Shown: in pieces, positions 1,221 through 8,180 of the stretch
Numbering within the stretch: position 1 is the first letter of the stretch
Layout: each line of letters begins with the position of its first letter
Notes under the pieces: model-generated
What the model was told of the DNA's origin: nothing
Database searches by the model: none
What the model saw: the letters and a program-made list of their open reading frames with translations, nothing else
Translations under genes and position numbers: made by a program
Assembly: GCF_000505665.1 (NCBI RefSeq)
Contig: NC_023033.1
Span: 1,409,813 to 1,473,812 of the forward strand
Reading direction: 5' to 3'
DNA length: 64,000 bases
From: Thermosynechococcus sp. NK55a
GTDB taxonomy: Bacteria; Cyanobacteriota; Cyanobacteriia; Thermosynechococcales; Thermosynechococcaceae

Positions 1221-1304
1221 GAACTTAGGAAAAAGCAATCAATAACACCATTTGATAAACTTTTGTAAATTTTTATTTTGAATGTCTTGGGCGATGCTTT
1301 ACCA

Positions 1305-3677
1305 ATGATTGAGAAACTCCTTGTTTTGTCCGCTGTTGATGACTGCCCTTCAGAATCACTATCGCCCCTTGAAGTCGTCACAGAAGAGTCTGCGCAAAAA
1401 TATCCTCAAAAAAAATGCTTACCCCCACCTACCAACCTATTAGTGATCGAAAACATCCCCCAATCGGGTGAAATTTTATATCCACATCTTGCAGAGATTG
1501 ATTACATTCGCTATCAAGTTCACACCTGTCTGTATTCTCATTTAACCCCCGGTGTGGTTGCTCAGGCCAAACCCAATCTCCTTATCCTTATTACTCAAGG
1601 GGATCACGTTCTTAAAGCAGTGCAAACACTCCAGCAACGCTATCCACACTTGCCCCTAGTTGTGATTGATCCTAGCGATCGCCCTGATCTGGCTACCCAA
1701 GTACTGCACAGTGGCGCTCAGGATTATTTAACTATTCAGGAACTCAGTCCTCACTTGCTGGCGCGCAGTATCCGCCATGCCATTGAGCGCCATCAGGTGG
1801 AACACCAACTGCTGCGCCAAGCCCAATACGATCGCCTGCTGGTGCAGATTACTCAGCACATTCACCAAACCCTTGAACTTCCGACGATTCTGGAAACTGC
1901 TGTCAAGGATGTGCGAGAACTCCTAGGGTGCGATCGCGTGCTCATTTATCGCTTCCTCGACGATTGGCGCGGCATTATGGATGTTGAAGCCGTCGTTCCC
2001 CCTTGGTTGTCGGCCCTTGGAGATGTAGTGGGGGACTACTGCTTTACGGAACGGTATGTGGAAGCCTACAAGCGGGGTCGCATCCATGTAGTGAATAATC
2101 TAGACATCGCCCCGGTCACGCCCTGCTATCGCGATTTGCTAGCGCACTATCAGGTCAAAGCGAATCTGGTGGTACCCGTCATAGTGGAAGGGCGGCTCTG
2201 GGGGTTGCTTATCTGTCATCAATGCGCCCATCCCCGCGACTGGCAAGACAGTGAAATTGAACTGATCAAGCAAATTTCAATCCAGTTGGCGATCGCCATC
2301 CTGCAAGCGGAACTCTATCAAAAAGCTCAAAGGGAAATTCAAGAGCGCAAAGCAGTCGAAGCCCAACTCCTTTACCAAGCCCGCCATGACCGGCTCACCC
2401 ATTTACCCAATCGCTGGTTCTTTGAGGAGCAGTTGCGCCTCACCCTCAACCATGCTGCAGAGTACCCCGACTTCCACTACGCCGTTCTCTGTTTGGATTT
2501 GGATCGCTTCAAGACCCTCAATGATAGTCTGGGGCACTCCATTGGGGATTTGTTTTTGCAAGCATTTGCCAGGCGACTAACTCGCCATGTCAGTCCTCAA
2601 GATGTTGTAGCCCGCCTAGGCGGCGATGAATTTGCCGTGTTGCTCAACGACATTCAGGGCATAGAACAGGCTCAAACCATTGCCGAAAGGCTGCGGGAGC
2701 GTCTCAGTCAGCCCTTTCAAATAGATCACTACACCCTCTACAGTACTGTCAGTATGGGCCTAGTGATGGGAGATGCCCACTACAGAAGTAGTGAGGAACT
2801 GCTGCGGAATGCCGACATGGCCATGTACCACGCCAAAGCCAAAGGGCACAATCGCATTGATGTCTTTCACCCCGTGATGCTGCAACAGCTGCGTGATCGG
2901 CTGCATTTAGAAGTGGAACTACGCCAAGCTATTGAGCGCGGGAACTTTGTTCTCCACTATCAGCCCATTGTTCATCTGGGCAGCCAATCCCTTAGAGGCT
3001 TTGAGGCACTCCTGCGGTGGCAAAAGGGAGATACCCTCATTTCCCCCACGGTGTTTATTCCTGTTGCTGAAGAAACTGGTCTGATTTTTGAACTCTCCCG
3101 CTGGGTGCTGCACAGCGCCTGTGAACAGTTGCAGCAGTGGCAACAGCGTTATCCTAAGCTTCAGTCTGTGGGCTTTACGATGAATATTAATCTGTCAGCC
3201 AATCATTTTTCTTTGCCTAACCTTGTGGCTGAGATTGAACAAACCCTTGAGCACCACCATTTAGCGGGTCAATTTCTGAAGATTGAAATTACTGAGAGTG
3301 CATTAATGCAGCACTTGGACTCTGCCTGCAAAATTCTCGCTGGACTCAAAGCCATGGGTGTACGTATTAACATTGATGACTTTGGTACTGGGTATTCCTC
3401 CCTGAGCTATTTGCGCAATCTTCCCCTCGATGGCATTAAAATTGATCGCTCTTTTATTTCCCAAATGGATCGCAGCCAAGCAGACTTTGAATTGGTACGC
3501 ACGATTTTGGCCTTGGCTCGCAATCTCCACCTCGATTGTATTGCCGAAGGCATTGAAAATACCACCCAACTGCAACGGTTGCGATCGCTGCGCTGTCCCC
3601 TTGGCCAAGGCTATCTTTTTGCCCCGCCGCTGACTACGGAAAAGGCTGAGGTGTACCTTCAAGAGCACATCCTCTAA
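1305..3677 (+). CDS. sesB: Cyanobacteriochrome with GGDEF and EAL domains (light-controlled c-di-GMP enzyme, SesB-like)
   Basis: The 790-residue protein has, in order, a receiver-like region (about 45-150) without the usual phospho-acceptor Asp, a GAF domain (about 175-335), a GGDEF domain (intact GGDEF at 439-443) and an EAL domain (EAL at 567-569, DDFGTGYSS from 691). The GAF domain carries Asp-Tyr-Cys-Phe at 244-247 and a second cysteine at 274, exactly 28 residues after the first. This matches the DXCF class of bilin-binding cyanobacteriochromes, which form a second thioether and sense blue/green or blue/teal light. The canonical Cys is followed by Tyr rather than the usual His. The GGDEF domain lacks the I-site Arg (SPQD at 430-433). 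EAL proteins hydrolyse c-di-GMP; GGDEF domains make it or act as GTP sensors. The sesB name is by architecture and remembered gene order in T. elongatus; SesC is the alternative. ATG at 1305 was chosen over an in-frame TTG at 1278; neither has a strong ribosome site. Confidence 0.88.
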   Translation: MIEKLLVLSAVDDCPSESLSPLEVVTEESAQKYPQKKCLPPPTNLLVIENIPQSGEILYPHLAEIDYIRYQVHTCLYSHLTPGVVAQAKPNLLILITQGDHVLKAVQTLQQRYPHLPLVVIDPSDRPDLATQVLHSGAQDYLTIQELSPHLLARSIRHAIERHQVEHQLLRQAQYDRLLVQITQHIHQTLELPTILETAVKDVRELLGCDRVLIYRFLDDWRGIMDVEAVVPPWLSALGDVVGDYCFTERYVEAYKRGRIHVVNNLDIAPVTPCYRDLLAHYQVKANLVVPVIVEGRLWGLLICHQCAHPRDWQDSEIELIKQISIQLAIAILQAELYQKAQREIQERKAVEAQLLYQARHDRLTHLPNRWFFEEQLRLTLNHAAEYPDFHYAVLCLDLDRFKTLNDSLGHSIGDLFLQAFARRLTRHVSPQDVVARLGGDEFAVLLNDIQGIEQAQTIAERLRERLSQPFQIDHYTLYSTVSMGLVMGDAHYRSSEELLRNADMAMYHAKAKGHNRIDVFHPVMLQQLRDRLHLEVELRQAIERGNFVLHYQPIVHLGSQSLRGFEALLRWQKGDTLISPTVFIPVAEETGLIFELSRWVLHSACEQLQQWQQRYPKLQSVGFTMNINLSANHFSLPNLVAEIEQTLEHHHLAGQFLKIEITESALMQHLDSACKILAGLKAMGVRINIDDFGTGYSSLSYLRNLPLDGIKIDRSFISQMDRSQADFELVRTILALARNLHLDCIAEGIENTTQLQRLRSLRCPLGQGYLFAPPLTTEKAEVYLQEHIL

Positions 3678-6204: not shown

Positions 6205-8180
6205 ATGGGCGTCTTTGTGGCAGTGGATCAGGTGGAAAAGGTTTTTGATCTGGCCAATGGGGGGCAGTATCTCGCCCTGAAGGGGATTAACTTGCAGATT
6301 CAAAAGGGAGAATTTATCTCCCTCATTGGTCACTCCGGCTGTGGTAAATCAACGCTGCTGAATATGATTGCCGGTTTAGATTTGCCCACCTCAGGTGTGG
6401 TCACCTTGGAGGGGCGGCGGGTGGGCCAACCGGGGCCGGATCGCATGGTGGTCTTTCAAAACTACTCGCTGCTGCCGTGGCTTTCGGTACGCGAGAACAT
6501 TGCCCTAGCAGTGGATGAAGTGCTTGCTCACCTGACTCCTGCTGAACGGCGGCAAATTGTCGAGTCCCATATTGACCTGGTGGGGCTGCGCCCCCATGCC
6601 CACAAGCCACCCACAATGCTCTCTGGCGGCCAGAAGCAACGGGTGGCGATCGCCCGCGCCCTTGCAATTCAGCCGAAGCTACTGCTGCTGGACGAACCCT
6701 TTGGTGCCTTGGATGCCCTCACACGGGGTAATTTGCAGGAACAATTGATGAAGATCTGCGAAGCCCAGCAGGTGACGGCGGTGATGGTGACCCACGATGT
6801 GGATGAGGCGGTGCTCCTCTCGGATCGGATTGTCATGCTCACTAATGGTCCCGGCTCCAAAATTGGCGGCATTCTTGAAGTGGATATTCCCCGTCCGCGG
6901 CAACGGATGGCCGTTGTCGAACACCCCAGTTACTACAGTCTACGCAGTGAAATCATCTATTTTCTCAACCAGCAAAAACGGGTGAAGCAGTTGCAGGCGC
7001 GTCGCAAACCGCCGATCGCCCGCCATGGCCTCGAAAAAATAAATTTGGAAATTGGCTTTGTGCCCTTGACCGCCTGTGCCCCAATCGCCATCGCCTATGA
7101 AAAGGGGTTCTTTGCCCACCATGGCCTTGAGGAAGTGTCCCTTGTGCGCGAGAGCAGTTGGCGAGGCATTGTGGATGGGATTGCCGCAGGCTACCTCGAT
7201 GCCGCTCAGATGCCGGCGGGGATGCCCGTGTGGTTTACCTGCGGCGGACATGAAGAGCAGCCGCTGCCTGTGGTCAGTGCCCTCACCCTTAGCCGCAATG
7301 GCAATGGCATCACCCTGAAAAAGGAATTTGCCGAGCAGGGGATTCGTACCCTGAGTGACTTTCACCGCTACTTGCTACAAACGCGCGATCGCCCCCACCG
7401 GTTGGGAATGGTGCATCCCTCTTCAATGCACAATCTCCTATTGCGCTACTGGCTAGCAGCAGGGGGCATTCACCCCGATCACGATGTCCACCTGCAAACA
7501 ATTCCACCGGCGCAAATGGTGGCGGATCTGCGCGCCGGCAGTATTGATGGCTATTGTGTAGGCGATCCTTGGAACCTCCGGGCCGCCAAAGAGGGACTGG
7601 GCTTTACCATTGCCAGTGACATGGACATTTGGGCTGGGCATCCAGGAAAAGTACTGGGGGTGCGAGAAGATTGGGCGATGACCTACCCCAATACCCACAT
7701 TGCCTTGGTCAAGGCCCTACTGGATGCCTGTCGCTACTGTGCCGATCCTGCCCACAGTGAGGAGATTAAGCAAATCCTCAGCCGCAAAGCCTATGTGGCC
7801 ACCAACCCTGAGTATTTGGAGCTAGGGCTAAATGAACAAGGTGGGCCAGTGCACCATCTTTTTTTGGCGACGGTGTCAATCGTCCCAGTCGCACCGAACA
7901 CCTGTGGATGATGACCCAGATGGCTCGCTGGGGTACGATTCCCTTCCCCCGCAATTGGGTAGAGATTCTGGAACGGGTATGTCGCGTGAGTGTCTTTAGT
8001 ACGGCCGCCCGCGAGTTGGGACTTTTGGATATTAAATATCGCAGCGGGCCTATTCAACTGTTTGATGGTACGACCTTCAATGCGGATGACCCCATTAGCT
8101 ATCTTAATAGCCTCACCATCAAACATGAGGTCTATATGGCCGAGATTCCCCTGAATTTACCTGTGTCACGGGCCGCCTAA
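6205..8180 (+). CDS. cmpC: Bicarbonate ABC transporter ATPase CmpC with CmpA-like C-terminal domain (frameshifted)
   Basis: CmpC is an ATPase fused to a solute-binding-like regulatory domain. Residues 1-270 hold Walker A (GHSGCGKST), signature (LSGGQKQRVAIARAL) and Walker B (LLLLDEPFGALD). From about 275 the CmpA-like domain starts (LEIGFVPLTACAPIAIAYE) and includes GDPWNLR and HPGKVLGVREDW. As read, the frame stops at 7911 after 568 codons. The expected C terminus continues in another frame (FFGDGVNRPSRTEHLWMMTQ onward) to TAA at 8180, giving the usual length of about 660 residues. The shift falls at the T7 run 7859-7865; one more T restores the frame. It could be an assembly error, a mutation, or slippage. 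The ribosome site AGGAGG overlaps the cmpB stop codon. Confidence 0.82.

Follow-up and report, generated by a model that had tools for sequence, protein, structure and literature searches.

A SesB ortholog in Thermosynechococcus sp. NK55a, probably a c-di-GMP phosphodiesterase under blue/teal control

Gene, domains and the dual-cysteine GAF domain

We analysed a 64,000-nucleotide stretch of DNA from Thermosynechococcus sp. NK55a, referred to below as the window. On its forward strand, the frame at 1278–3677 encodes a receiver-like region followed by a GAF, a GGDEF and an EAL domain. The ATG at 1305 is more likely to be the start codon than the TTG at 1278, because the orthologs align from about that methionine. 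Residue numbers throughout refer to the longer frame. The features of the gene are listed below.

1305..3677, + strand: sesB (Tlr1999) ortholog of 790 aa if ATG 1305 is the start; the open frame extends upstream to TTG 1278 (799 aa)
1434..1802 (edges approximate), + strand: receiver-like region at the N terminus, lacking a phosphoacceptor Asp, about residues 53-175; weak matches
1878..2300, + strand: GAF domain, predicted to bind bilin, of the DXCF cyanobacteriochrome type, residues 201-341; Pfam PF01590, E 2.3e-27; TePixJ structure 3vv4, E 3.4e-34
1977..1979, + strand: Met234, candidate colour-tuning site, placed by alignment at beta-2 close to the D ring
2034..2045, + strand: DYCF motif, residues 253-256, with the second cysteine C255 (nucleotides 2040-2042) as the expected C10 ligand of the bilin
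2124..2129, + strand: canonical cysteine C283 followed by Tyr284; Cys-Tyr in 11/11 genomes of the genus
2148..2150, + strand: Tyr291, eight residues after the canonical cysteine (C+8), candidate colour-tuning site, placed by counting on helix alpha-4 close to the D ring
2379..2855, + strand: GGDEF domain, residues 368-526; Pfam PF00990, E 7.4e-47
2592..2603, + strand: SPQD where the RxxD product-inhibition site would be, in 11/11 copies of the genus
2619..2633, + strand: intact GGDEF signature, codons GGC GGC GAT GAA TTT
2916..3629, + strand: predicted EAL phosphodiesterase domain, residues 547-784; Pfam PF00563, E 1.8e-74

The N-terminal region resembles receivers only distantly. It matches FleQ at E 0.0075, below the Pfam cut-off, and response regulators at E 0.003-0.18, under the curated cut-offs. 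Among solved structures the matches are 6oap (E 7e-5) and the response regulator 7pvk (E 0.0014, a weak alignment). In the weak response-regulator alignment, the phosphoacceptor Asp is absent from the window's protein, which has ILITQGD at the site, and the orthologs have VLIAQGD and similar sequences there. At the other end of the protein, the EAL domain contains the conserved motifs EAL, N, EITES, DDFGTG, KID, AEGIE and GQG. These are retained in the complete SesB copies, with ETL replacing EAL in three of them (G008, G001 and G407).

The cysteines C255 and C283 are exactly 28 residues apart. A gap-free alignment of the GAF domain with the solved TePixJ structure places both in register with the bilin cysteines of TePixJ, described as C494 (to C10) and C522 (to ring A) and likewise 28 residues apart (PMC6955287). 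An earlier note on this DNA had read the protein as a dual-cysteine DXCF cyanobacteriochrome driving GGDEF and EAL domains, noting a DYCF motif, a second cysteine 28 residues on and a tyrosine after it. The coordinates and the spacing are confirmed, the Pfam domains and the TePixJ alignment agree with the proposed architecture, and the alignment that the note had suggested puts the two cysteines on the bilin positions and not away from them. The pattern D-x-C-F-x26-C occurs once in the 51,351 aa of the window's six-frame translation (420 segments of at least 60 aa), and 11 of 20,000 shuffled versions of the protein contained it; on these counts we rejected a chance origin. The same genome encodes a bilin reductase. 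The GAF domain is thus of the DXCF cyanobacteriochrome type by its motif and the register of its cysteines, and bilin attachment is predicted.

The variable residue of the DXCF motif is tyrosine in the window's copy only. It is serine in the other 10 orthologs of the genus and in the ortholog of a sister genus (G287), and histidine in that of another (G407). We also searched 386 genomes with the GAF domain, of which 267 gave a match, and kept the best 30 loci. Tyrosine stands at this position in none of the 26 loci that lie outside the genus. These 26 are the best matches and not a random sample; they include the SesB of G287, and 7 of them lack a strict DXCF.

SesB orthologs and their relatives

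A full-length SesB ortholog is present in all 11 Thermosynechococcus genomes examined, split over two contigs in one of them (G009). The window's protein is 88% identical over its full length (799 aa), and 92% identical in the GAF domain, to the copy of a BP-1-like genome (G010). With G009 left out, the identities of the nine other copies of the genus to that of the window range from 88 to 66%. The flanking genes are the same on both sides in four of the seven neighbourhoods compared (G010, G006, G007 and G003). One side is shared in G002, and neither is shared, within the stretch taken, in G001 and G008, the two most diverged species.

A profile search gave some match at E 1e-150 in 27 of 29 genomes within the family. 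Matches reaching the N-terminal region came from 13 genomes, namely the 11 of the genus and the two sister-genus genomes G287 (model positions 5-789) and G407 (30-788); the remaining matches listed mostly cover GGDEF-EAL. Two further candidates were not counted as SesB: their matches begin at positions 183 (G303) and 171 (G405), and both lack the DXCF cysteine and the canonical cysteine at the aligned sites.

The genes of G010 that we call SesA and SesC are presumably the published ones, as their places fit the published locus numbers. In the window's genome, both names rest on matches to G010, and that of SesA also on residue numbers. Over 130 residues, the PixJ GAF domain of G010 is the same as that of the solved T. 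elongatus protein. In the open frame of the G010 SesA, the DXCF cysteine is residue 502 and the RxxD arginine residue 679, each 3 above the published Cys-499 (PMC4067208) and R676 (PMC5871770), and G010 was taken as BP-1-like on these agreements. We take G010 to be T. elongatus BP-1 and its SesB copy to be Tlr1999.

Together, these results suggest, with a probability of about 0.88, that the window's protein is the ortholog of SesB (Tlr1999), a c-di-GMP phosphodiesterase controlled by blue and teal light through its GAF domain, its own photocycle and activity being judged from the ortholog. The earlier note had linked the protein to the SesA/B/C family of T. elongatus/vulcanus. That link holds and can be narrowed, as the sequence identity and the shared neighbours identify the protein as SesB itself. 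Since it belongs to the SesB group, the function guessed from its sequence is already in print for that group. A literature search returned no paper on the SesB of another Thermosynechococcus species, which is not proof that none exists. Apart from its intact GGDEF motif, which is GSDEF in the G010 copy, the window's SesB is an ordinary member of a described ortholog group.

The closest known proteins compare as follows. SesB/Tlr1999 of T. elongatus and T. vulcanus, as judged on the G010 copy, shares with the window's protein the domains, the neighbours, the cysteine spacing of 28, Cys-Tyr, the tyrosine at C+8 and the lack of RxxD; it differs in having GSDEF and DSCF where the window has GGDEF and DYCF. 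SesA/Tlr0924 has a DXCF GAF domain with Cys-Tyr and a GGDEF output, but shows no EAL match in the alignment, is only 40-41% identical in the GAF domain, has leucine at C+8, and is published as a blue/green cyclase. SesC/Tlr0911 also couples a DXCF GAF domain to a GGDEF-EAL output, but has Cys-His and leucine at C+8, is longer (a 1261-aa open frame), is published as bifunctional and reaches 38-39% GAF identity. TePixJ has the DXCF GAF domain and the same cysteine spacing, whereas it carries Cys-His and leucine at C+8, is named as a chemotaxis-type protein and is blue/green.

Relatives of SesA, SesC and PixJ and a Tlr1612-family protein are present in the window's genome, so that this hot-spring species has relatives of all three Ses proteins. 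The genome also encodes two glycosyltransferases with PilZ domains, which match the cellulose synthase model as well. The Tlr1612 family contains the published major aggregation repressor. In the window's genome, its member (C1:993500-998800) has an open frame of 1032 aa and covers only 261-1268 of the 1268 positions in the family model, and the G010 protein matches from position 23 on; the N-terminal part of the repressor thus seems to be lost here. NK55a has been used in co-aggregation work, whose authors state that Thermosynechococcus strains do not aggregate in growing pure culture and that aggregation is inducible by low temperature and blue light (PMC11434263).

Light response and the origin of the teal colour

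The window's copy differs from that of G010 at the variable DXCF residue and in the GGDEF motif, so that identical behaviour is not assured. Tlr1999 itself is reported at about 418/498 nm with phycoviolobilin. SesB is described as a phosphodiesterase whose activity increases with teal light and GTP and which holds back aggregation under teal-green light; the same source states that it has no cyclase activity and lacks the residues needed for it (PMC5871770). A review table gives it as blue(-), teal(+), with phycoviolobilin and PDE activity (PMC8846402). In a sesB mutant, aggregation is described as continuing after the stimulus ends (PMC9090330). As the photocycle, the phosphodiesterase activity and the aggregation and phototaxis phenotypes are published for the ortholog, we infer by analogy that the window's protein behaves like the published SesB. 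The control of c-di-GMP by blue and teal light that the earlier note had predicted is accordingly probable, on the orthology to published SesB.

We propose the following mechanism for the window's protein. The GAF domain would bind phycocyanobilin through C283 and convert all or most of it to phycoviolobilin. C255 would add to C10 in the dark to give a blue-absorbing state. Blue light would flip the D ring, break the C255 link and produce a teal-absorbing state, which teal light would drive back to the blue-absorbing one. The ratio of the two photostates would set the GGDEF-EAL output, such that teal light would raise c-di-GMP hydrolysis and GTP would activate it further, and the protein would oppose SesA and keep the cells dispersed.

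The origin of the teal colour is a separate question, and here the earlier note had pointed to Tyr284, which would block or slow the isomerisation of phycocyanobilin to phycoviolobilin and so set the colour. The SesA proteins of the window's genome, G010 and G008 also have Cys-Tyr (that of G001 has Cys-His), and SesA is described as isomerising slowly and incompletely, over days, to a PCB:PVB ratio of about 1:4 (PMC4067208); TePixJ, with Cys-His, is described with phycoviolobilin (PMC6955287). Both points fit the proposed effect on isomerisation. However, SesA (Tlr0924) is described as blue/green despite its Cys-Tyr (PMC4067208), and the SesB orthologs of the two sister genera, whose colour is only presumed, have Cys-His together with the same C+8 tyrosine. 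The chemistry also runs in the opposite direction: phycoviolobilin is described as blue-shifted relative to phycocyanobilin (PMC12420706), and the unconverted phycocyanobilin fraction of SesA as giving a red-absorbing product (PMC4067208), so that blocked isomerisation should lengthen the product wavelength and not move it from green to teal. Moreover, the review table quoted above lists SesB with phycoviolobilin. Cys-Tyr occurs in 6 and Cys-His in 20 of the best 26 GAF matches outside the genus. Tyrosine after the canonical cysteine is thus neither rare nor tied to teal by these comparisons, and on SesA, the sister-genus SesB copies and the bilin chemistry we rejected Tyr284 as the cause of the teal colour, which we regard as very unlikely. 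The slowing part of the claim fares better, for the tyrosine may slow isomerisation, given the slow and incomplete conversion in SesA. The G001 SesA is a natural variant in this respect, combining Cys-His with phenylalanine at C+8, as against Cys-Tyr with leucine in the SesA of the window's genome and of G010.

Two other residues of the GAF domain follow the SesB group more closely. At C+8, tyrosine is found in 13/13 SesB orthologs, and leucine in 11 of 12 SesA, SesC and PixJ sequences, with phenylalanine in the remaining one (G001 SesA). At the beta-2 site, methionine is found in 12/13 SesB orthologs (isoleucine in G009), and the 12 SesA, SesC and PixJ sequences have valine (11) or isoleucine (1). 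Spectra are in print for only some of these 12, and the rest are called blue/green by orthology. The beta-2 and alpha-4 equivalents of phenylalanines are named in the tuning of teal-DXCF sensors (PMC5240096). We placed the alpha-4 site by counting 36 residues from the DXCF cysteine position, as in UG1 (Y741 to Y777), although UG2 has 37; the beta-2 site comes from the alignment alone. A pattern search for a red/green-type GAF domain among the retrieved loci found none, and both placements rest on this counting and alignment.

Tyr291 is therefore a better candidate than Tyr284 for the teal colour, as a correlation across few paralog groups at inferred sites, and we suggest that Tyr291 and Met234 rather than Tyr284 set it. 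The point raised is whether SesB owes its teal colour to an aromatic residue at C+8 instead of the residue after the canonical cysteine. A simple C+8 rule may be undercut by the best 26 matches outside the genus, which have phenylalanine (16), tyrosine (4) or leucine (6) there. Furthermore, tyrosine in place of leucine near the D ring is described as red-shifting some cyanobacteriochromes (PMC7504144), and if that site is C+8, the red-shift counts against the idea.

The same residues bear on whether the protein might be a blue/green sensor of the TePixJ type and not a blue/teal one. It has the cysteine spacing of TePixJ, and its GAF domain is 34-35% identical to those of PixJ from G010 and from the window's own genome. 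Against this, its GAF domain is 92% identical to that of the G010 copy, which we take to be Tlr1999, reported as blue/teal, and the C+8 and beta-2 residues are those of SesB and not of PixJ. We rejected the blue/green assignment, which is highly improbable, on the orthology to SesB.

The GGDEF motif and possible c-di-GMP synthesis

The degenerate GGDEF motif that goes with the lack of cyclase activity in published SesB is not found in the window's copy, where the motif is intact. In G010 the motif is GSDEF, encoded by GGC AGC, one base away in that codon from the GGC GGC of the window. The intact GGDEF is present in 10 of the 11 copies of the genus (the window's and nine others) and in G287, and G407 has AGDEF. 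Because of this distribution, the GSDEF of G010 looks derived, and a degenerate motif found in one of 11 genomes was not treated as defining the SesB group. All 11 copies of the genus keep the D, K, N, D and K positions of the GTP site. At the phosphate-contact position, 8 of the 11, including those of the window and of G010, have histidine and 3 have arginine. The roles of the GTP-site residues and of this arginine are those of their counterparts in PleD.

These residues raise the possibility of a bifunctional SesB, in which the GGDEF domain would still make c-di-GMP and light would set synthesis (blue) against hydrolysis (teal), as in SesC. Published SesB lacks the cyclase residues and the BP-1-like copy has GSDEF, as against GGDEF in the window and 9 of the 10 other copies of the genus, and the GTP-site positions are all in place. 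SesC has SGDEF and leucine at the phosphate-contact position and is nevertheless described as a cyclase (PMC5871770); histidine at that position in SesB therefore need not kill activity. However, conservation of the GTP site would be equally expected if GTP only activated the EAL domain, and the window's protein has histidine for the phosphate-contact arginine and lacks the product-inhibition arginine. In addition, many GGDEF-EAL proteins with intact motifs are mainly phosphodiesterases. We therefore consider a bifunctional SesB unlikely and keep to a protein that would act mainly through teal-raised hydrolysis.

If the intact motif is functional, its presence in 10/11 species may mean c-di-GMP synthesis by SesB outside the published strains. 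One could then speculate that SesB was ancestrally, and in most Thermosynechococcus species still is, a switch with a single photoreceptor, both producing and degrading c-di-GMP depending on whether the light is blue or teal, and that the phosphodiesterase-only form of the published laboratory strains arose by a recent loss of the synthesis motif through a change in one codon. We hold this scenario, which is drawn from the motif comparison, to be quite unlikely; were it true, the SesA/B/C circuit as published would not apply to the genus as a whole.

The surroundings of the gene show two further features. Upstream, about 870 bases (405-1277) separate sesB from the preceding gene, and the open reading frames listed there are all short. 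The corresponding intervals of G006, G002 and G003 align with it at 73-80%; that of G010 does so in two stretches (79% and 88%), and that of G007 over 50 bases only. Downstream, an nrtC-like ABC transporter gene is frameshifted (6205-7911 and 7908-8180): its frame stops at 568 aa and the rest lies in another frame, and the gene has 661-aa stop-to-stop frames in G010, G006, G007 and G003. The two frames part at a run of seven T at 7859. As NK55a was sequenced by 454 (PMC3907722), the frameshift at this run could be a sequencing error.
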